From positions 1 through 22,487 of the IMG/VR virus record IMGVR_UViG_3300033144_001509: DNA of 22,487 nt; one strand, given 5' to 3'. The position numbers were made by a program, and so were the translations under genes. The stretch comes from a virus. Each line of letters opens with the position of its first letter. The first letter of the stretch is position 1. Below are positions 2-22,487 of this stretch, piece by piece. The notes below the pieces were generated by a model, which was not told where the DNA came from, did not search any database, and saw nothing but the letters and a program-made list of their open reading frames with translations.

Positions 2-3000
2 GTTACACATCCTGAGTTAGCATTAAATTATAGTCTAGGGACAGGCGGTCCTAGGAATTATTTAGATGAATTTAACTCATTTATTGATAATAGGAATGCT
101 GGTGTTTTCTCCAATGAGAAAAATAATATTTTAATGGGTGAAGGTTTTACAGATAAGATGTATAAAATAAAGTATGACAGATTAAATGCTTGGAATAATG
201 CAGATGATGCAACAAAAAAAATATTAGAAGAAAATTATCCTATGCTTTTCGGAATCAATCCTATGAATACAGCAGCAGGAAATAGTAGATATTTTTCACA
301 TATTAGTAATCAACTTGGACCTGAAGCAGCAATAAAAGGGGGAGTTAAATTAGATGAAATTTCAAATGTATTTGTCCCTAGGAATAGAATACAGCAAACT
401 ACTGATTATTTTGGTGATAAAATAGGAAATATAAAAATAAATTCATTAGAAGATTATAGTAGTAGTATTCCAAGGATGCCATATTATGAGGATATAGCCA
501 TCAAAAGACTAGAAGAATCATTAAAGCATTATAAGAAATATGGTGGTTCATTACCAAAGGCTCAAATTGGAATAGAAAGTGCAATTGTTAATCCAAGCTT
601 GGGAACATTTGGATCTATTAGTTATGATGACGTAGAAATACCAAGATCAGAAGTAGATCCAAAAGCAGTAGACATTTGGGAAGGTGGTAGAGAATTTATG
701 CAAATGTGGTATACCTCACCTATGGCTATTGAAATGATGAAAAAGGAAGACCCTGAAAACTGGCAACAATTACAAGCATATAGATTAGAAAACATAAGAG
801 AAGATCTTGCTAAAATAAAGTTTTATGAAAAAAGTAAAGATCCAGATTATGCTAATTATTGGGCATGGGCAGGTGGTAACCATGGACTTTGGAATATAGG
901 TGTATATCCAAAAGGACTACTTGCTGGACCTTCAGCATCACATGAATTTACTCATCTTTCCCATAATGCACTTGCCAGTAATGACTATACGGATGACTGG
1001 ATACGTACAGGATTACCATTAAGCATCTATGATGGTAACCCTAATGCTCCTACTCTGGTTCAGACAGATCCTAACTTTTTTAAATATTATGGTAAGCATA
1101 GTAATTGGACTAACCCTTATAGGAATAGTAATCATCCATGGAACTATGAATTTGGACAAGATGGTGGATACTCTATGAGTGATGAGCAGTATTTAATTCC
1201 TCAGTCTACTATGAATCTTATGCATACAAATGACATGAAGTTTAAAGATAAGCGTGGTCAACAAGGGGTATTAGGTAATGTAACAAAGAGAGATTCTGAA
1301 TATTGGGGAGCTCCATCTGAACACATAGCAAGACTTAATGCAATAAGATATAAAGCTTATATGACCAGAGATCAACATGGTTGGGATCCACTTACAATGC
1401 CACTTACTGATGAGTTATGGGAGAAGGTAAAAAAGAGAATTCAAACACCTGAAGGAGATGAAGCTAAATTTGAAGATAATGTAATGATAGAGCAATTAAT
1501 GAGTATAATAGGTGAAGATGCTCTTAAAGAAGAATTAAATGAAGTTTCATTTAATACAGTACCTACATATGATCCTAATAATATAGGGGATGACGTTGGA
1601 GATCCTAGAAGTATTAGATATGGTGGTTCAGTAAGAAAACATACAATAGTTAAAGGTGATACCGGTAAGAGATTAAAAGCTATGTATGGGACAGAACTAA
1701 AAGATATTCTTAAACATAATGATATAAAATATTTTAAATTAGGTGCAGAGATAGAAATACCCAAATATCAAAGTCAAGGGGAGTATCCTAAATATGGTGA
1801 TAAAGAAATGACTAAAAAACAAAAGGATTTTCATGATAAGGCTATTACTAAAGGTTGGAGATGGAATGGTTCCGGATATGATACAGCACCATTAGTAGAG
1901 GATACCAAATATCTTGATAAGCAAGTGGATTTAAATAATCCAATTTCAAATTGTCCTAATGGTAATTGTTTAGAATCTCCAAAAGAAGATGATTTAGTTG
2001 ATGAGATGTATACATATGAAACTCATGGAGATTGGTTTGATGGTCGTGCTGTTTTTACTGACGGAGCAGGAGATTATAATGATGAAGTTAGAAAAAAGAT
2101 TTATGCAGGTACTCATGGATTTAATCCAGTTACTCAGGTATTAACCAAATTAGATAAAAAACAATATGTACCATTAGGTATTCAAGAACAGTCTATGCGT
2201 ACTGATGACCCAGAATCTCCCTATTATATTGAACAGCCTATACAACCATATTTACCTGATGGAGGAAATTGGTCTAAAGGAATGTTAAATAGAATGAATC
2301 TAGAATCTAATCCTTATTATTTACTAGATGAACGAGAAACTCCAACACTTAATCTATCAGGAGATTTAAATTTTAGAGAGATGAGAGAAGATTATTTGGA
2401 AGTTGGAAAAGGTGATCCTGATGCGTGGGAAGCAATGATGGCAGGAGATACTAGATATTATACAAATCAAGATGGTTCAATAAATAAGAAAAAACAAGGT
2501 AAGTATTATTCAGCTTCTCAGTGGAAAATGAATCATTTTAATCCATTATGGTCAATTGCATCAGCATTGCACCCTGCATCTTGGCCAATATATGCTATGA
2601 GTGGATCATTAACATTACCCGGTGATACGGAAGAACTTATAGAGAACCCATCATGGTCTAATGCACTTAACTTTGGTACATCTCTGTTAGAAATAGCTCC
2701 AGCAGTAGTTGGACCAAGGATTAATGCTCAGAATATAAATAAAATAGATGATATTACAAATATTACTAATAAATCTGATGATATAGTAAGAGGTGTAACA
2801 AAAAATAAATCTGGAAATATTAAAACTTCATTTGATAATAAATTAACTACACATACCCTTGAAGCTGGAGACCAATCAGTTGCACAAATGAGGATGTTTA
2901 ATTCTAATAAATTAAAGGTTCAGAAAGGGGAGCTCTCAGTTGGAACTAGAAATGCTAATATAGAAATTGCTTCAGATGCTAGTGGTAAAATGCGTATAGA

Positions 3001-3484
3001 CATAGAGATTCCAACTAAATCAGGATTAATATCTGATGGAGGTGATATGGTATTACAGACAACAAATAAACCTGGTGTTTTTGATATACATATGACAATG
3101 CATAATCCTAAAGAGGCATACCACTCTATGAAATATTTAGAAGAGTTTATGCCAAAGGGTAGTATTCTTTCAACTACAAGTTTTAGTACAGATAGTTATA
3201 AACTTATACTAAATAGACTTAGAAATGGTAAGTTTACATATGTAGATGAAGGAGGTACGAGTTTTAAACATTTAACTCAGAGTGGTAAAGTACAGGGTGG
3301 ATATGGGGTTCAGTGGCCTAAAGATGAAGCTTTGATACAGATTAAACAAATTAATAAACAGCTAGAGAAAGCAGGAATACCATACAAAGCTAAATTAGGA
3401 GATGCACTAGGGGATGGAACGTATATGATAGATATTCCTGATGTGAAGATATTGATGGGTTACAAACTAGGAGGAGAAAAATAA
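2..3484 (+). CDS. Giant multidomain phage protein with HEFTH zincin motif and LysM-like domain (5'-partial)
   Basis: The frame is open from base 2, so the gene begins upstream of the window; the first in-frame ATG (134) is probably internal. Residues here count from that ATG. YGGSLPKAQ lies at 136-144. The zinc-metallopeptidase motif HEFTH is at 270-274 (bases 941-955), with a possible third ligand in SEHIAR (Glu396/His397). A second YGGS at 496 leads straight into a LysM-like segment at about 503-543 (starts HTIVKGDT, ends EIEIP), a fold that usually binds peptidoglycan. Hydrophobic stretches lie at about 801-830 and 843-863, and a C-terminal region from about 905 is unrecognised. Very long proteins beside phage structural genes are often virion cargo or tail proteins, so a virion-borne enzyme acting on cell wall or protein at entry is inferred. 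The HExxH and LysM calls rest on visible motifs; the substrate is unknown. Confidence 0.82.
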   Translation, partial: VTHPELALNYSLGTGGPRNYLDEFNSFIDNRNAGVFSNEKNNILMGEGFTDKMYKIKYDRLNAWNNADDATKKILEENYPMLFGINPMNTAAGNSRYFSHISNQLGPEAAIKGGVKLDEISNVFVPRNRIQQTTDYFGDKIGNIKINSLEDYSSSIPRMPYYEDIAIKRLEESLKHYKKYGGSLPKAQIGIESAIVNPSLGTFGSISYDDVEIPRSEVDPKAVDIWEGGREFMQMWYTSPMAIEMMKKEDPENWQQLQAYRLENIREDLAKIKFYEKSKDPDYANYWAWAGGNHGLWNIGVYPKGLLAGPSASHEFTHLSHNALASNDYTDDWIRTGLPLSIYDGNPNAPTLVQTDPNFFKYYGKHSNWTNPYRNSNHPWNYEFGQDGGYSMSDEQYLIPQSTMNLMHTNDMKFKDKRGQQGVLGNVTKRDSEYWGAPSEHIARLNAIRYKAYMTRDQHGWDPLTMPLTDELWEKVKKRIQTPEGDEAKFEDNVMIEQLMSIIGEDALKEELNEVSFNTVPTYDPNNIGDDVGDPRSIRYGGSVRKHTIVKGDTGKRLKAMYGTELKDILKHNDIKYFKLGAEIEIPKYQSQGEYPKYGDKEMTKKQKDFHDKAITKGWRWNGSGYDTAPLVEDTKYLDKQVDLNNPISNCPNGNCLESPKEDDLVDEMYTYETHGDWFDGRAVFTDGAGDYNDEVRKKIYAGTHGFNPVTQVLTKLDKKQYVPLGIQEQSMRTDDPESPYYIEQPIQPYLPDGGNWSKGMLNRMNLESNPYYLLDERETPTLNLSGDLNFREMREDYLEVGKGDPDAWEAMMAGDTRYYTNQDGSINKKKQGKYYSASQWKMNHFNPLWSIASALHPASWPIYAMSGSLTLPGDTEELIENPSWSNALNFGTSLLEIAPAVVGPRINAQNINKIDDITNITNKSDDIVRGVTKNKSGNIKTSFDNKLTTHTLEAGDQSVAQMRMFNSNKLKVQKGELSVGTRNANIEIASDASGKMRIDIEIPTKSGLISDGGDMVLQTTNKPGVFDIHMTMHNPKEAYHSMKYLEEFMPKGSILSTTSFSTDSYKLILNRLRNGKFTYVDEGGTSFKHLTQSGKVQGGYGVQWPKDEALIQIKQINKQLEKAGIPYKAKLGDALGDGTYMIDIPDVKILMGYKLGGEK

Positions 3485-5288: not shown

Positions 5289-5675
5289 ATGAATATAGAA
5301 GAAGGAAAAATACACCTATCTCCTAAAAGTTATAAAGATTTCTATAAAGAAATTGCTGAAGAATGTGAAGTACATCCAGATCTAGTTGATGATTTAGTTA
5401 GATTCTTTTATGATAAGGTCAGAAGAGAGTTAGAAGATTTAAATCATTCTAGGATTTTACTTCCCAATCTTGGAACATTTATAACTAGGAAAGGTAGATT
5501 AGATAGAGCAATTAAAAGACATAAGGATATGTTAGGTAATATGGAAAAGATAACATATAAAGGTTATCGTGATCATCTACCTCTTAAAAGCAAACTAGAT
5601 AAAATGATTAAAGCTTCAGATAGAATATCTAAGGAGCAAGAACATAAAAAACAATGGAAAGATGAAAATCAATAA
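5289..5675 (+). CDS. IHF/HU-like DNA-bending protein
   Basis: The product is 128 residues, longer than the roughly 90 of bacterial HU/IHF. After a short N-terminal extension, residues about 14-50 form the two HU-type helices, and residues about 57-68 (ILLPNLGTFITR) match the conserved HU/IHF strand with its G-x-F core. The DNA-binding arm region follows, then an extra Lys/Glu-rich C-terminal helix. HU/IHF proteins act as dimers that bend DNA; a subunit encoded near the structural block is a known trait of crAss-like phages. Likely roles are genome compaction, packaging or regulation. It overlaps the next gene by 14 bases. Confidence 0.8.
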   Translation: MNIEEGKIHLSPKSYKDFYKEIAEECEVHPDLVDDLVRFFYDKVRRELEDLNHSRILLPNLGTFITRKGRLDRAIKRHKDMLGNMEKITYKGYRDHLPLKSKLDKMIKASDRISKEQEHKKQWKDENQ

Positions 5676-6009
5676 AATATTAAATGCAGTAAAAAACATT
5701 GATCAAGTATATGAAGGTGTTAAGAATAAAATGTTTAAAAAATCTTATATTGAAGATATTGCTAATTATAGATGGAAACAATGTAAGACATGTCCACATC
5801 TAGATATTAAAGGTGAAAAATGTGCAGTACCTGGTACTAAACCTTGCTGTGGAAAATGTGGTTGTGCTTTATCACTTAAACTTAGAGCAATGTCAACTGA
5901 TTGTCCACTTGAAGGAGATGAAAAGAAATGGGATATAATAATGGATGCTGAACAAGAAAGTATATTACTAAAGAATTTAGATAAACAAGATGAAAAAAAT
6001 AAGTCCTGA
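5662..6009 (+). CDS. Cysteine-rich zinc-binding protein, unknown
   Basis: This 115-residue protein has eight cysteines clustered between residues 41 and 81: C41-x2-C44, C54, C62-C63-x2-C66-x-C68 and C81. The spacing (CKTC, then KPCCGKCGC, then DCP) suggests one or two zinc-ribbon or knuckle sites. The N-terminus (about 1-38) is helical and basic, and the C-terminus is acidic. The gene overlaps the IHF/HU-like gene by 14 bases and the following methyltransferase by 20, so it belongs to one tightly coupled operon. Nothing shows enzyme activity; a nucleic-acid or protein-binding adaptor is the likeliest role. From memory, similar small proteins occur in other Bacteroidota phages, but no search was done. 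Confidence 0.78.
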   Translation: MKINKILNAVKNIDQVYEGVKNKMFKKSYIEDIANYRWKQCKTCPHLDIKGEKCAVPGTKPCCGKCGCALSLKLRAMSTDCPLEGDEKKWDIIMDAEQESILLKNLDKQDEKNKS

Positions 6010-16334: not shown

Positions 16335-17963
16335 ATGGCAACACAAGTTTTAAACAACGGTCTCTTCCTCAGAGACACTAATTACAAAGCTAGTTCTCAT
16401 GTTGATTCGTACCACTTAACTAATATGCTTGGTAACGCAGAGCCAATGGACATGGGTCCAGTGGATTTGTGGGCAATGACACAAAAGGTAGAAATGCCTT
16501 TGTATCAAATGGCATCTTTTGGTGGTAAGAATACAATCATGGTGGACAATGCTCGTGGGGAGTACAAATGGCAAACACCTATATCACAAGAATTACCTCA
16601 GATTGTAGGTGATGTGATATGTGGTGAGGGTAGAACAGTAGGTGCTGATGGTGTACCTTTTAAGATCAAATTATCTACAAGAGAATTTGGTCATGGAGAC
16701 ATCATTACATATGACAAGTACAATGGTCTAGAATTATACGTTACAGCTGATGATATTATTCAGTCAGGTGACGGATGGATTTATACCTGTGAACTTGTTA
16801 ATAACAATAGTTCTGCTACATTAGATGCTGATAAGTATTTAAAAATAGGTACTAAATTCTTTAGAAAAGGTTCTGCAAGAGGTGAGTACGGAGAAAGATT
16901 CTCTGATATTCAAGTAGGAACAGGATTTAGAGAATTCTATAACTTTGTTGGAGGTGCTGAAGCACATGTTCATTATTCAATTTCTTCTAGAGCAGATTTA
17001 ATGCTTAAAGGTGGAATGAATGCTGACGGTACTGTACCTGTAACAGAGATTTGGAGAAACTTTGATCAAAACTTAGATCCTTCTTTAGCTTCTATTGAAG
17101 ACATTGCATCAGTAATGGGTAAAGATTATGTTAAAAAAGCATTTGATAATGGTTCACTTTCTAGAACTTTCTTAACTGGAATGGAAGCTGCACACTTATC
17201 TAAAATTGCTAATGACATTGAGACTTACTTAATGTGGGGTAATGGAGGTAGAATTAAACAAGACGGACCGGATGATTTAAGATTATCAGTAGGTTTATGG
17301 AAACAATTAGATAACTCATTCAAAAGAGTATACAACAAGTCAGCATTTAGCTTGGATATGTTCAAAAATGAATTATATAACTTCTATGCTGGTAAAGTTG
17401 AATTTGATGGACCAGATCCAAAACGTCAGTTAATAGTTCAAACAGGTATTGGTGGTATGCAATTAGTTAATGCTGCAATTGCTGCTGAAGCAGGCGGAAT
17501 GACTGGTAACATGGTTACAAATGCTGATGCAATTGGAGCTGTAACAGGAAAAGGTATGGATCTAGGATTTGGATTTGCTTATACTAGTTACGTTATTCCT
17601 TTCTTAGCTAATGTTAAGTTTGTATTAAATCCAGCGTTTGATAACTTACATACTAATGACATTGAGAATCCATTAGTAGATGGTAGACCTTTATCTTCTT
17701 ATAGTTTCATCATTTTTGATGTAACTGACGAAGGAAGTGATAACATCCACTTATTAAAACTTTCTTGGGATAATGCATTGAAATGGTTCTATCAAAATGG
17801 AACTATGGATTACATGGGAAGAACTCAAGGTTTTGCATCATCAGGACACTTTAATGGTTACCGTGTAATGATGACACAAACAATGCCAGCTGTATGGGTG
17901 AAAGATCCAACTAAGGTTCTTAAGATTGTAATGAAGAATCCTGTAACAGGAGGTTCATTCTAA
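16335..17963 (+). CDS. Major capsid protein (probable HK97 fold)
   Basis: The 542-residue protein lies after the scaffold-like gene and before a strong hairpin terminator. It opens MATQVLNNGLFLRDTNYK. A beta-rich N-terminal part contains KIKLSTREFGHGDIIT and a possible insertion domain (about 130-190), then a long helix with FLTGMEAAHLSKIANDIETY (about 279-298), the spine-helix position of HK97-like proteins, and a C-terminal region ending MKNPVTGGSF. Length slightly exceeds the roughly 500 of crAss-like MCPs. Its 5' part uses more C-ending codons (AAC, TTC, CTC) than its neighbours, as expected for a highly expressed gene. The leader is A/T-only up to GTGAAAAATG, with no Shine-Dalgarno. Identity rests on synteny and overall style; there is no unique short motif. 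Confidence 0.83.
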   Translation: MATQVLNNGLFLRDTNYKASSHVDSYHLTNMLGNAEPMDMGPVDLWAMTQKVEMPLYQMASFGGKNTIMVDNARGEYKWQTPISQELPQIVGDVICGEGRTVGADGVPFKIKLSTREFGHGDIITYDKYNGLELYVTADDIIQSGDGWIYTCELVNNNSSATLDADKYLKIGTKFFRKGSARGEYGERFSDIQVGTGFREFYNFVGGAEAHVHYSISSRADLMLKGGMNADGTVPVTEIWRNFDQNLDPSLASIEDIASVMGKDYVKKAFDNGSLSRTFLTGMEAAHLSKIANDIETYLMWGNGGRIKQDGPDDLRLSVGLWKQLDNSFKRVYNKSAFSLDMFKNELYNFYAGKVEFDGPDPKRQLIVQTGIGGMQLVNAAIAAEAGGMTGNMVTNADAIGAVTGKGMDLGFGFAYTSYVIPFLANVKFVLNPAFDNLHTNDIENPLVDGRPLSSYSFIIFDVTDEGSDNIHLLKLSWDNALKWFYQNGTMDYMGRTQGFASSGHFNGYRVMMTQTMPAVWVKDPTKVLKIVMKNPVTGGSF

Positions 17964-18046: not shown

Positions 18047-19063
18047 ATGAGTACAAATGATTCAATAACAATTATAGAAAAATATCAGCAGGGTAAAAGT
18101 CATGCCATTGCTGTACGTCCATTTTTTGATGCACAAAGAGATAATATGGGCTTAGAAAAATACAAGATGACATTATTTGAGGGAGTATGGCACCATGAAG
18201 CTTTAACATGTTTAGAGAGAAACGGTGTAACAAGATATGTAACAGGTTTAAATGAATTTGCACCTGAAGTAAAAATGTTATCTCCTGAAAAGAAAGAAGC
18301 AAAAATAAAAGAAATTAGAACAGTGGTTTGTCAACTTGAAAAAGAATTAGCTGCAAATGTAATTGATCCAGAGGATAAAGACTTTTGGTCAAAGGTTCAA
18401 GTATTACAACCAAACAACAATAAATTTTGGGATAAAATATTACTTAAATGTAGTAATGATCCTCTTTATTTAGATCCAGTAAAAGATCCTTTTGATTTAA
18501 TTAAACTATATGCTATTGAAGCAGGAGGGTTTTCAATAGTTGCTAAAAGTCTTGAAGATGCAAAGGCAAAAGGTAGTAGATTTTATTTAGATAAAGTTAA
18601 AGAAACAACAGGTACAAGAACAAAATTATCTAAGATAAGAAATAGAGCTCTTGCATCATTGCAGAATTTATATGATACTGATACAACAAAATTATTATAT
18701 GTAACTAAAGTTATTCATAATAATAGTACAGAATATCTTCACAGTACCCCTATTGATGTACTATATGAAGAGATGGATGCATTTATTAATGGAGAACGCC
18801 ATGATACATCAAAAAAGAGAGCTGCAGAAGAATTTATAAAAGTATCCGGTTCATCAATGGAAGATTTAAAAATTAGAGCATTAATTAAAGATTGTTTAAC
18901 TAATAACCTAATGAAAACTAAATCTGATGGATTTATTGTTGATAAATATTCTGGTGATCAATTAGGGAAGAGACCTCTTGAGGTTCTTGAATTCCTAAAA
19001 GATCCTAAGAATGATGATATATTAACAAGATATATGAATGAAATTGAACCTATTTGGAATTAG
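18047..19063 (+). CDS. Head-region protein of unknown function after MCP
   Basis: This 338-residue, mostly helical, charged protein lies just after the MCP terminator and 3 bases before the probable connector gene. Visible features are an N-terminal GKSHAIAVRPFFDAQRDNMG, a helix LSPEKKEAKIKEIRTVVCQLEKEL (about 85-108), DPFDLIKLYAIEAGGFSIVAKSLEDA (about 148-173) and a C-terminal LEVLEFLKDPKNDDI. No enzyme motif is evident. Proteins in this place in phages are often head-completion, decoration or assembly factors. No promoter of its own is clear, so it is probably expressed by read-through past the hairpin. The leader ACCAATTAATAATTAAAA resembles the one before the scaffold-like gene. Confidence 0.8.
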   Translation: MSTNDSITIIEKYQQGKSHAIAVRPFFDAQRDNMGLEKYKMTLFEGVWHHEALTCLERNGVTRYVTGLNEFAPEVKMLSPEKKEAKIKEIRTVVCQLEKELAANVIDPEDKDFWSKVQVLQPNNNKFWDKILLKCSNDPLYLDPVKDPFDLIKLYAIEAGGFSIVAKSLEDAKAKGSRFYLDKVKETTGTRTKLSKIRNRALASLQNLYDTDTTKLLYVTKVIHNNSTEYLHSTPIDVLYEEMDAFINGERHDTSKKRAAEEFIKVSGSSMEDLKIRALIKDCLTNNLMKTKSDGFIVDKYSGDQLGKRPLEVLEFLKDPKNDDILTRYMNEIEPIWN

Positions 19064-19066
19064 ACA

Positions 19067-19768
19067 ATGAATAATGCTACACTACAAATAAAGTTTACAC
19101 AAAGGTTAAACAAACTAGCCAGTAATGACTATGATAATATAGAGTGTTGGCAAATTATTGAAGCTTTTAATAAAGCACAGATTGAGTGGTGTAGGAGACA
19201 ACTTCATGGTAATAATATGTATAAGGAAGGGGATGAGGCATCTAAGCGTAGAATAGATGATCTCCAACCTTTACTTACTAATCAAATATTAATTGGTCCT
19301 TCAAATAGTGAATATTTTAAAGGAACAAATTTTCCATCTAACTATTTGGAATACAAGAGAGTAAGTACAGATGCAACTAATGAATGTTGTAAAGATCCCA
19401 GATCAATGACAGTTTATTTAGCAGAGGAAGCTAATATAGATATTATAATGAGAGATCCTCTTAAGAGACCAGACTTTGAATGGGGTGAAACATTTTGCAC
19501 ATTACATGCAAATAATATAAAGATATATAGAAGAGATTTTGATATTGTAGATCCTGTATTAACATTTTATAGAAAGCCAAGAAATATTGAAATATTAGGA
19601 TGTATAGATCCATATACACAAGTTGCTACTGTAGCAGATATAGAATGTGAATTTAAAGATGATATAGCAGAACTTATCATTGATGAAGCTGTAGCAATCA
19701 TTGCTGGAGATATTGATGCTGTAAATCAGTACATTAGAGGATCACAATATGCAGAAAAAAATAATTAA
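19067..19768 (+). CDS. Probable head-tail connector (neck ring) protein
   Basis: The 233-residue protein starts three bases after the previous stop. Residues about 10-45 are helical (NKLASNDYDNIECWQIIEAFNKAQIEWCRRQL), a beta-rich middle contains VLTFYRKPRNIEILG (about 164-178), and the end is a helix, DDIAELIIDEAVAIIAGDI (about 200-218). The helix-strand-helix layout, with a C-terminal helix rich in Glu, Ile and Ala, resembles head-tail adaptors that dock beneath the portal (P22 gp4-like or ring proteins). It has seven cysteines, more than the capsid genes upstream. The connector call is inferred from layout and position; the fold has not been tested. Confidence 0.68.
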   Translation: MNNATLQIKFTQRLNKLASNDYDNIECWQIIEAFNKAQIEWCRRQLHGNNMYKEGDEASKRRIDDLQPLLTNQILIGPSNSEYFKGTNFPSNYLEYKRVSTDATNECCKDPRSMTVYLAEEANIDIIMRDPLKRPDFEWGETFCTLHANNIKIYRRDFDIVDPVLTFYRKPRNIEILGCIDPYTQVATVADIECEFKDDIAELIIDEAVAIIAGDIDAVNQYIRGSQYAEKNN

Positions 19769-19913: not shown

Positions 19914-21023
19914 ATGAGTTATTTTAATCACGCTTATAGAAAAAGCATGTTAGCAACAGGTGTTGCTGCAAAAGCAGCTGCCACAAGTACATTTGGTGCT
20001 GGTGTTGTAGGTATTGTAGATGCGTCTACTTACCTAGCATATGATCCAGCTGCAACAGTACTTGCTGGAGACGTTTTACTTGTACAAGGAAACTACAATA
20101 CTGTAGACACTATTGGAGGTAATCCTCTTCATGGTGGATATTCTGAGTCAATTAAATCTAAAATTATTAAACCTAAGTTCATAACAAAAGTATGGACACA
20201 AGATTGTACTGATGCTTGTGCTGCTGCTGATGTTACTGTAACTGTGGCAGACACATGTTTTCCATGTGGTTCACATCCTCAATTAAGAATTGATCTTAAA
20301 GGTGATAATATAATGAGGTTCTTAGGAAGAAACAATTATTTTATTGCTGATTTAACAGGATGTTGTGCAGCAGGAACAGGTAATTTTACAGGAGTAGAAG
20401 TTACTGAAGGTTGGAGAGATGCTATTAATAATGATCCAACAATTAGTCCTTTTGTTACTGCATCAGCTGCTGCTGGAGTATTAACACTTTCTTTAGCATG
20501 TCCAGATGAAACTGCATTTGATAATTGTTCATTTGATACTAGAGACTGGTATGGAACAACTCCTATCACTATGCTAGTTAATGGAGTTGATGATGATGGA
20601 GATGCTTGTACAGATTTCTGTGGTGTTATCAATAAAAATGAAGTTACAACTATGCCAGCTGAAACAAGTGGTGAAACAGTATTGAGAGATCTTATCTTAG
20701 ATGGAAGATACCGTCAAGATGGTGGTCATAACCAAGGTAATAAAGATTCTGCTAGATTTAGAGACATTGAAGGTGGAGATACTTTAATTGCTGCAGTTAA
20801 TAGAGCTGCATATTATAAGATGTATTATGTACAGCATACTGTGCCTCGTTACAATAATCCAACTGGAGTATTTGATAATGATCAATATGTAGTTTCAGTT
20901 GCTGTTGATTGTACTGAGACTGACTTAAAAACCTATATGGATGTTATATGGGGAGCATTAGCAGCTAGTTGTGCTGTATGTAGTCCTGTTGATCAAGATT
21001 GTCCTACACAGGAAGAAAGATAA
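19914..21023 (+). CDS. Cysteine-rich abundant virion protein (inferred), unknown family
   Basis: The 369-residue product has 14 cysteines, several in pairs (DCTDAC, CFPC, GCC, ACTDFC, CAVC). The first 45 residues are Ala/Gly/Thr-rich (AAKAAATSTFGAGVVGIVDA); the rest is beta-rich with many Gly and Asp, including the acidic VDDDGDACTD at about 226-235. It has no signal peptide of standard form. A promoter, a structured leader and a strong intrinsic terminator isolate it as a single-gene unit, which suggests high, separate expression, as for a decoration, tail or fibre protein. Cysteines may bind metal or lock a virion shell after lysis; the cytoplasm normally keeps them reduced. I do not recognise the family. 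Confidence 0.8.
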   Translation: MSYFNHAYRKSMLATGVAAKAAATSTFGAGVVGIVDASTYLAYDPAATVLAGDVLLVQGNYNTVDTIGGNPLHGGYSESIKSKIIKPKFITKVWTQDCTDACAAADVTVTVADTCFPCGSHPQLRIDLKGDNIMRFLGRNNYFIADLTGCCAAGTGNFTGVEVTEGWRDAINNDPTISPFVTASAAAGVLTLSLACPDETAFDNCSFDTRDWYGTTPITMLVNGVDDDGDACTDFCGVINKNEVTTMPAETSGETVLRDLILDGRYRQDGGHNQGNKDSARFRDIEGGDTLIAAVNRAAYYKMYYVQHTVPRYNNPTGVFDNDQYVVSVAVDCTETDLKTYMDVIWGALAASCAVCSPVDQDCPTQEER

Positions 21024-21046
21024 GAATTATCTTATAATTAATTACT

Positions 21047-21079
21047 AAAAGGGATGGGATTAAGTTCCCATCCTTTTTT
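21047..21079 (+). terminator. Strong intrinsic terminator after the cysteine-rich gene
   Basis: GGATGGGA (21052-21059) pairs perfectly with TCCCATCC (21066-21073) around the loop TTAAGT, and the stem extends through A/U pairs (AAAAG with TTTTT) into a run of six T. This is a textbook intrinsic terminator and, because of the A tract, may work in both directions. Confidence 0.9.
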
Positions 21080-21094
21080 GTTTTATATATGAAG

Positions 21095-21111
21095 CTTTTT
21101 TTGTATATTAT
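21095..21111 (+). promoter_or_regulatory. Candidate promoter before the 21149 gene
   Basis: CTTTTTTTGTAT (21095-21106) is identical to 3926-3937, and TTGTATATTAT (21101-21111) is identical to 19793-19803. It lies between a strong terminator and the next ATG, where a promoter is required. TTTG at 21077-21080 lies 23 bases upstream of TATATTAT, slightly longer than the usual spacing. Confidence 0.5.
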
Positions 21112-21148
21112 TAATAGGTAGTAATATATACTCAAAATAAAAAATAAT

Positions 21149-21694
21149 ATGGCGGCAAAACACATACTCAGTTTAGAATCATTCTTTGTTTCTAATCCAG
21201 AAATTTTTCATTTAAAAGACACAAGTCAATATGCTGATAATCTTAATATTGATTGTCCCGAATTACTTATAACTGCACCAGGTTATAATACACCAGCATT
21301 AATTGAAGTTCAACCTGGTTTTGACTTATCTATTAATGCATGTTCATTAAATATTCAATCAGCAGATTGTAACTCTACAAGGGTAGATATTCCAGATGGA
21401 ATTTACATTGTAAGATATAGTGTAGCTCCAAATGATAAGGTATATGTTGAATATAACATGTTAAGAACAACATCTTTAATGAATATGTATTATGATAAGA
21501 TGTGTGCTATTGATGTGAGTCCTTGTGAACCTTCTTCTGAGAAAAAAGCATTAATGGATGATATGGGATTTATTAGAACATTAATTGATGCAGCAAAATC
21601 AAAAGTAGAATATTGTGGTAGTCCTAGTCAAGGTATGGAACTTTTTGAATTTGCCAAAAGAAAACTAGAAAAAATAACATGCCCAACATGTTAA
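21149..21694 (+). CDS. Small cysteine-containing structural-region protein, unknown
   Basis: The 181-residue product appears to have two parts. A beta-rich N-terminal domain (about 1-110) contains LLITAPGYNTP and IPDGIYIVRYSVAPNDKVYVEYN; a helical C-terminal part (about 130-181) contains FIRTLIDAAKSKVEYC and FEFAKRKLEKITC. It has eight cysteines, ending in CPTC. A beta domain followed by helices beside neck and tail genes could suit a tail-completion or fibre-adaptor protein, but no family is certain. It starts a new transcription unit after the strong terminator, with the leader AAAAATAAT before ATG, and is followed at 24 bases by a tiny zinc-finger-like gene. Confidence 0.78.
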   Translation: MAAKHILSLESFFVSNPEIFHLKDTSQYADNLNIDCPELLITAPGYNTPALIEVQPGFDLSINACSLNIQSADCNSTRVDIPDGIYIVRYSVAPNDKVYVEYNMLRTTSLMNMYYDKMCAIDVSPCEPSSEKKALMDDMGFIRTLIDAAKSKVEYCGSPSQGMELFEFAKRKLEKITCPTC

Positions 21695-21718
21695 TAAACC
21701 AAAAAAAAACTAAATAAT

Positions 21719-21835
21719 ATGGCTAATTGTGCACATTGTAGAAAACCCTTTACCTGTGGTTGTCAAAAAACAAAAACATCTGACGGTAGAACAGTTCATA
21801 AAGGTTGTAGATCTGCAGCAGAGAAAAAGAAATAA
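21719..21835 (+). CDS. 38-residue zinc-knuckle microprotein
   Basis: This short gene begins MANCAHCRKPFTCGCQK and ends in Lys-rich sequence. Cysteines at 4, 7, 13, 15 and 30 (C-x2-C-x5-C-x-C, then HKGC with His27) fit a single zinc site. The start has the same AAATAAT leader and ATGGC context as its neighbours, and its stop shares one base with the next ATG (TAATG), which strongly supports it as real. A structural zinc protein or assembly adaptor is plausible; the function is unknown. Confidence 0.75.
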   Translation: MANCAHCRKPFTCGCQKTKTSDGRTVHKGCRSAAEKKK

Positions 21836-22487
21836 TGAAAAACTGTACAAATAAGGATTATAATATCAAGAAGATTGAGATAGAACGTAACTTTGCTGAT
21901 GATGTCTTTAAGAAGTATAGATATAAAAGATATGGTATTGGTAATTGCTGTGGTAGTGATTTTGACGATAATGTAAACAAGAAAGCTCTTTGTGATTATG
22001 ATGATAATCAATTAATTACATACACTGATATTACAGTTACATCAGAAATATATACTCCACCTGAAGGTGGTGCTGAGGATGATCCTAATAAACCTGACTG
22101 GGTTAATGCACTTTGTGGTATGGATCATGATGAAGTTCAGATATATTTTTATTATGATGCAACATCATTAGGTATACCAGAAACTATTGCTGCATATACA
22201 GCTGCTCAAGCATGGGTAGATAATATTAAACAAGATAATGATGGACCTGAATACATAAACTGTACTAATATAGAAGAGAATAGTATTGAGTCATATCATA
22301 CAACAGTATTTGGAGAAAGATGGTTAGATTGGGCAACATCTGCAATGACAGGAGCATTTAATAATTCAGGAAGTTGTGGTGGTAATGGTACTGTTGATAT
22401 TAATGGTGCTGGTTGTGTTACAGGAACTGCTGTAAATGTAGATCCTATTCCATCAAGAAATTTTGGTATAAATGATTGTGGTAGTGC
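21835..22487 (+). CDS. Cysteine-rich protein, possible vWA-like region (3'-partial)
   Basis: The frame is open from ATG 21835 to the window end (217 complete codons), so the C-terminus is missing. The N-terminus is basic (KKYRYKRYG) with NCC at about 37-39. VQIYFYYDATSLGIPETIAAYTAA (from about residue 101; Asp108) resembles the first strand, metal-site loop and helix of von Willebrand A-like domains, but the loop D-A-T-S-L lacks the full D-x-S-x-S. TTVFGERWLDW follows at about 155-165 and then a Gly/Asn/Cys-rich stretch. There are at least nine cysteines. A large tail or fibre protein is the likeliest role by position; the vWA comparison is weak. Confidence 0.72.
   Translation, partial: MKNCTNKDYNIKKIEIERNFADDVFKKYRYKRYGIGNCCGSDFDDNVNKKALCDYDDNQLITYTDITVTSEIYTPPEGGAEDDPNKPDWVNALCGMDHDEVQIYFYYDATSLGIPETIAAYTAAQAWVDNIKQDNDGPEYINCTNIEENSIESYHTTVFGERWLDWATSAMTGAFNNSGSCGGNGTVDINGAGCVTGTAVNVDPIPSRNFGINDCGS

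Follow-up and report, generated by a model that had tools for sequence, protein, structure and literature searches.

The genes at the end of this viral DNA encode proteins much richer in cysteine than the genes preceding them, which raises the question of what these proteins are and what their cysteines do. The stretch analyzed, hereafter the window, is a 22,487-base virus record (IMGVR_UViG_3300033144_001509, positions 1 to 22,487). The cysteine counts given in a preliminary description of this DNA are all correct: none in the 431 residues of the scaffold-like protein, 2/542 in the major capsid protein (MCP), 3/917 in the portal and 7/233 in a connector, followed by 14/369, 8/181, 5/38 and, in a gene cut by the window end, 9 in 217 residues. 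Cysteine content rises from 0.9% (56/6211 aa) in the 19 ORFs up to position 19063 to 4.1% (43/1038 aa) in the five ORFs from 19067 (binomial P = 6e-16). The abrupt switch reported at 19914-22487 is therefore real, but that region omits the connector, where the switch begins: the gene between MCP and connector, skipped in the description, is at background level (4 cysteines in 338 aa), which places the switch at the connector. A further cysteine-rich ORF lies upstream, at 5662-6009 (8 cysteines in 115 aa, two CxxC motifs), and may encode a zinc protein upstream of the terminase.

Gene identities and gene order

The window MCP matches the Pfam family Crass_capsid (PF23898; E 3.5e-31, score 108.6 against a cutoff of 27) and the portal matches P22_portal; the window is thus a fragment of a crAss-like phage. 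In crAss001 the corresponding genes are named MCP gp32, gp33, rings gp34 and gp35, auxiliary capsid gp36 and hub A gp38, followed by hub B gp39, ring gp40, HU/IHF-like gp42, ring gp43 and muzzle gp44 (PMC10172136). The window genes follow this order, the MCP and gp33 homologue being followed by ring R3/R4, auxiliary capsid protein and tail hub protein A (Table 1). Two of the assignments come from profile comparison by hhalign, that of the gp33 homologue (P 84.6, E 6.8e-6, 223 columns) and that of the connector, which matches crAss001-family R3/R4 ring proteins (P 88.9, E 2.4e-6, 211 columns).

Table 1. Features of the window discussed in the text, all given in window positions.
Feature	Position	Strand	Basis
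Major capsid protein, crassvirus type; cysteine-poor reference	16335..17963	+	PF23898; 2 Cys, non-conserved
Homologue of crAss001 gp33 (annotated dsDNA-binding protein); background Cys	18047..19063	+	hhalign; crAss001 gene order
Tail ring protein, R3/R4 type (the connector), 7 Cys	19067..19768	+	hhalign profile; Cys conservation
Ring Cys27 codon, predicted partner Cys179	19145..19147	+	Concordance and shared changes
Ring Cys179 codon, predicted partner Cys27	19601..19603	+	Concordance and shared changes
Predicted auxiliary capsid protein (decoration layer), 14 Cys	19914..21023	+	AlphaFold2 model, Foldseek, VIA-align
Auxiliary capsid Cys98 codon, predicted partner Cys333	20205..20207	+	Shared changes; held-out concordance
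Auxiliary capsid Cys333 codon, predicted partner Cys98	20910..20912	+	Shared changes; held-out concordance
Predicted tail hub protein A (fibre-docking collar), 8 Cys, C-terminal CxxC	21149..21694	+	AlphaFold2 model, VIA-align, conservation
38-aa zinc-ribbon-like protein, CxxC-x5-CxC-x11-[HC]xxC	21719..21835	+	Cys conservation; His/Cys at site 27
Giant Cys-rich fibre-like protein, N-terminal part, cut by window end	21835..22487	+	Long homologues in relatives

No significant match was found in PHROGs, Pfam or NCBIfam for the auxiliary capsid, hub or 38-residue proteins, nor by tblastn against isolated phages for the auxiliary capsid protein or the hub, and PDB sequence-profile searches identified neither these two nor the ring. 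Against their crAss001 counterparts, the sequence profiles of auxiliary capsid and hub A gave hhalign E values of 0.22 over 80 columns (non-significant) and 0.24 over 26 columns, respectively. As sequence profiles did not detect them, the identities of both proteins rest on predicted folds and gene order. The AlphaFold2 model of the auxiliary capsid protein (81 sequences, pLDDT 85.7) has as top Foldseek match 7qof_a, which is crAss001 gp36 (E 2.8e-10); in VIA-align the two superpose over 291 residues (Z 16.8, rmsd 4.2), residues 4-362 of the model corresponding to 4-333 of the chain, so that the gp36 fold is matched along nearly the entire protein. Residues 100-249 also match tail sheath and flagellin domains; a contractile tail sheath identity was rejected because the gp36 match spans the whole chain at a higher Z. 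The block had initially been read as a contractile-tail sheath and tube pair, a reading dropped on the fold results. For hub A (model pLDDT 89.3) the top VIA-align match is 7qoj_G, which is gp38, over 148 residues. The Z of 8.7 is modest; the beta-sandwich and the C-terminal helices align with gp38 near full-length, while nearly all other structural matches span little beyond the FN3-like half. By predicted fold and gene order, the two genes encode the crassvirus auxiliary capsid protein and tail hub protein A.

Related loci were gathered from viral contigs, four of the searches each confirming more than 530 relatives. Nearly all of these loci keep the gp33-like, ring, auxiliary capsid and hub genes in a syntenic block, which the isolated Leptolyngbya phage Lbo-JY46 shares. 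Three relatives extending past the end of the window (L012, L017, L022) carry R2 (E 1.1e-14) and R1 (E 9.3e-9) 3' of the fibre genes. The crassvirus module thus has more than one ring-protein gene, R3/R4 within the window, R2 and R1 in relatives, and the ring-gene set is complete. Genes for muzzle and cargo proteins would be expected beyond this 22.5-kb fragment.

Conservation and paired change of cysteines

The contrast between the two sets of genes extends to the relatives. The scaffold is devoid of cysteine in 31/31 distinct sequences, and the MCP contains 0.1%, the two cysteines of the window protein being conserved in 10-12% of sequences only; the four later families contain 2.3-10%. Conservation among homologues had been proposed as a check in the preliminary description, and in non-redundant sets of 67-82 sequences the cysteines are conserved far above the protein average. 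In the auxiliary capsid protein C115, C118, C150, C151, C205 and C232 are conserved at 93-100% and C236 at 84%. The ring CC doublet at 107-108 is kept in 99-100% of the clade. Seven of the eight hub A cysteines are found at 93-99%, and the mean for all eight is 0.89, against 0.56 for all residues of the protein. Most of these conserved cysteines are absent from the distant relative Lbo-JY46.

Co-gain and co-loss of disulfide partners is an idea used in published work on connectivity prediction (e.g. PMC4498770). Parsimony changes were counted on a tree built from concatenated proteins with all cysteines masked; the test is informative for varying cysteines only, invariant ones giving no signal. 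Among 102 distinct loci, every change was joint for three pairs: residues 98/333 of the auxiliary capsid protein (9/9 changes), 27/179 of the ring (5/5) and hub columns 21/61 (4/4), the last being occupied by residues other than cysteine in the window. These are 3 of 31 cysteine pairs, against 0 of about 45,000 pairs of the other 19 residue types.

Concordance was then scored in held-out loci, retrieved with queries from divergent members. The held-out set is made up of protein sequences non-identical to earlier ones, and since non-identity is its only definition it may include close relatives; three of the loci scanned share contigs with earlier loci. Ring C27 and C179 are both present or both absent in the 105 earlier and in 113/113 held-out distinct sequences, and hub columns 21/61 are concordant in 106/106 held-out sequences. 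C98 and C333 of the auxiliary capsid protein occur together in 36 held-out loci and one without the other in 2, the rest having neither or being gapped. On an enlarged tree of 220 distinct loci, joint changes were 14 of 14/15 for C98/C333, 10/10 for C27/C179 and 3/3 for hub columns 21/61, a pair with few independent changes behind it. Auxiliary capsid columns 110/189, also non-cysteine in the window, changed jointly in 11 of 11/12 cases. At the set threshold, the control on 220 loci gave 1 pair in 174,337 for other residues and 3 in 188 for cysteine. Hub columns beyond residue 181 also seemed to pair; these cases have the appearance of C-terminal alignment shifts and were dropped.

Coordinated changes involving exactly two cysteines argue for disulfides over zinc. 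Disulfides are the best explanation of the co-variation of C98/C333 in the auxiliary capsid protein and of C27/C179 in the ring, and the paired columns point to disulfides in the hub protein of relatives too. The partners may belong to the same subunit or to two like subunits, which the test does not distinguish. The suggestion of a disulfide-hardened decoration layer or tail in the preliminary description is thereby largely borne out at the level of co-varying residues, the genes concerned encoding the predicted outer capsid protein, hub A and the tail ring; zinc is supported for the 38-residue protein only, on account of the interchange described below.

The 38-residue protein and the fibre-like genes

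The gene following hub A, whose TAA overlaps the ATG of the fibre-like gene (TAATG), encodes a 38-residue protein carrying two CxxC / [HC]xxC half-sites with ligand interchange. C4, C7, C13, C15 and C30 are present in 67/67 non-redundant sequences, and site 27 is His in 47, Cys in 20 and nothing else. Alternation between His and Cys typically marks a zinc ligand; the protein thus bears a zinc-ligand signature and is a predicted zinc binder. Matches to named zinc-ribbon families are all sub-threshold (L37Ae, E 0.0033; Elf1 Zn ribbon, E 0.0089). An ORF fitting the pattern lies directly 3' of hub A in 186/201 distinct loci, a tally that adds nothing to the interchange count, as the pattern itself demands His or Cys at that site. 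The gene occupies the place of hub protein B in crAss001; hhalign revealed no relation of its product to hub B (E 0.77), and it is not assigned that identity. A variant of the small protein with an extra cysteine (CxxCxxCxC...CCxxC) is found directly 3' of hub A in the clade formed by loci L023 to L036. The small gene is missing from L017, L058, L061, L062, L067, L110 and L035, where mostly a fibre-type N-terminal domain adjoins hub A.

The last ORF of the window is probably a tail fibre gene, judging from place, size and repeats. Its homologues in six relatives (L003, L004, L006, L008, L011, L012) span 1177-3024+ aa and contain 47-164 cysteines; several feature repeats of the type GCTDPxAxNYDPxAxxDDGSC. 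Two loci have single genes exceeding 3000 codons, with about 164 cysteines, which run off the locus ends (L004:12100-21168, L006:12099-21170). A separate protein of 174-220 aa with 10-13 cysteines is encoded between the fibre genes and R2 in four loci (L012:18038-18574, L008:19343-19867, L067:13411-14073, L017:15977-16609); it matches none of the crAss001 ring, hub or auxiliary capsid profiles.

Role of the cysteines and comparison with known phages

The region is probably a crAss-like head-to-tail module, made up of ring R3/R4, auxiliary capsid protein, hub A, a small zinc-ribbon protein and a giant fibre-like protein, and stabilized by disulfides. These products would be located in the virion's outer layer and tail, after being synthesized and assembled in the reduced state in the host cytoplasm. 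Oxidation of paired cysteines, presumably after lysis, would form disulfides mainly inside subunits or between like subunits, and these may lock three parts of the particle: decoration layer, tail ring and fibre-docking collar. For the 38-residue protein zinc binding, not disulfide formation, would be expected; encoded between hub and fibre genes, this protein would most likely act in fibre-hub assembly, a guess from its position.

A virion covalently cross-linked between different proteins (ring, hub and capsid), rather than mainly within or between like subunits, is somewhat unlikely. Precedents exist, as disulfides between hubs, between hub and ring and between R1 and R2 stabilise the tail barrel and docking hubs of crAss001 (PMC10172136), and in the Agrobacterium phage Milano a network runs through capsid, collar and tail (PMC10491603); many invariant cysteines of the present proteins are moreover left without an assigned partner. 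The tree test, to which such invariant residues contribute nothing, nevertheless revealed no convincing cysteine pair that co-changes between any two of the ring, auxiliary capsid and hub proteins.

We consider it unlikely that the cysteines serve mainly as zinc ligands, forming structural sites of the CxxC knuckle type in the auxiliary capsid protein and hub, with the 38-residue protein as a third. The conserved CxxC motifs at residues 115-118 of the auxiliary capsid protein and at the hub C-terminus would fit such sites, as would the joint loss of auxiliary capsid cysteines 115, 118, 151 and 205 in relative L009 and the interchange in the 38-residue protein. The coordinated changes, however, involve two cysteines and not four, though invariant cysteines cannot be sorted by this test, and among aligned losses at conserved auxiliary capsid and hub sites none is a replacement by His, except in the distant Lbo-JY46.

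It is likewise improbable that the disulfide reading extends to a redox-locked virion throughout a large crAss-like clade, with auxiliary shell, ring and fibre collar stapled by disulfides once the cell has lysed, and a zinc-ribbon protein that guides hub-fibre assembly and prevents premature oxidation. It is hardly credible that the proteins are rich in cysteine simply because of the composition of the lineage or the type of protein, without any role in bonding: the genome is AT-rich and nearly all cysteine codons are TGT, but scaffold, MCP and portal in the same genomes remain cysteine-poor, cysteine positions are much better conserved than the average residue of these proteins, and paired gain and loss of cysteines far exceeds that of other residues.

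The analysis puts names to genes that databases leave unannotated, in a group of phages represented by several hundred viral contigs. It also predicts, ahead of any observed particle, which residues of which virion proteins form disulfides, in a form testable on expressed protein. crAss-like phages are usually linked to Bacteroidetes. Lbo-JY46 (L038, PP438436.1), an isolated cyanobacterial phage almost wholly annotated as hypothetical, bears a crass-type structural block: homologues of MCP, gp33-like, ring, auxiliary capsid and hub A are found in the same order as in the window. Its ring has 2 cysteines and its hub 4.

Milano shares with the window cysteine-rich structural proteins. In that phage disulfides in capsid, decoration proteins, neck and tail raise physical stability, making the virion markedly more robust, and reduction abolishes the effect (PMC10491603). 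Milano is however non-crAss-like and has a tail sheath and collar, and what is seen here is a pattern of pairing, neither bonds nor inter-protein cross-links.

The closest parallel is crAss001. Gene order, ring profile and the predicted auxiliary capsid and hub A folds are alike, as is the cysteine-rich hub A, which in crAss001 (11 cysteines in 215 aa) is the most cysteine-rich of the structural proteins compared; the crAss001 tail is reported to be disulfide-stabilised (PMC10172136), whereas disulfides are here predicted from sequence. The two differ in that crAss001 has hub protein B where the clade of the window has the small zinc-ribbon-like gene, and in that relatives of the window place giant cysteine-rich fibre-like genes between hub A and R2. 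R3/R4 ring proteins contain on average about 6 cysteines in relatives of the window and 1-4 in the crAss001 family. The auxiliary capsid protein averages about 10 in relatives of the window; eleven crAss001-family proteins have 0-2, and a cysteine-rich auxiliary layer is for this reason without direct precedent. Extending the crAss001 principle of tail disulfides, by analogy, to the auxiliary capsid and the R3/R4 ring best explains the data. Tail disulfides being already known in crAss001, the new element is the cysteine-rich auxiliary capsid layer; if the prediction is true, crassvirus relatives carry disulfide stabilisation beyond the tail and into the outer layer of the capsid.
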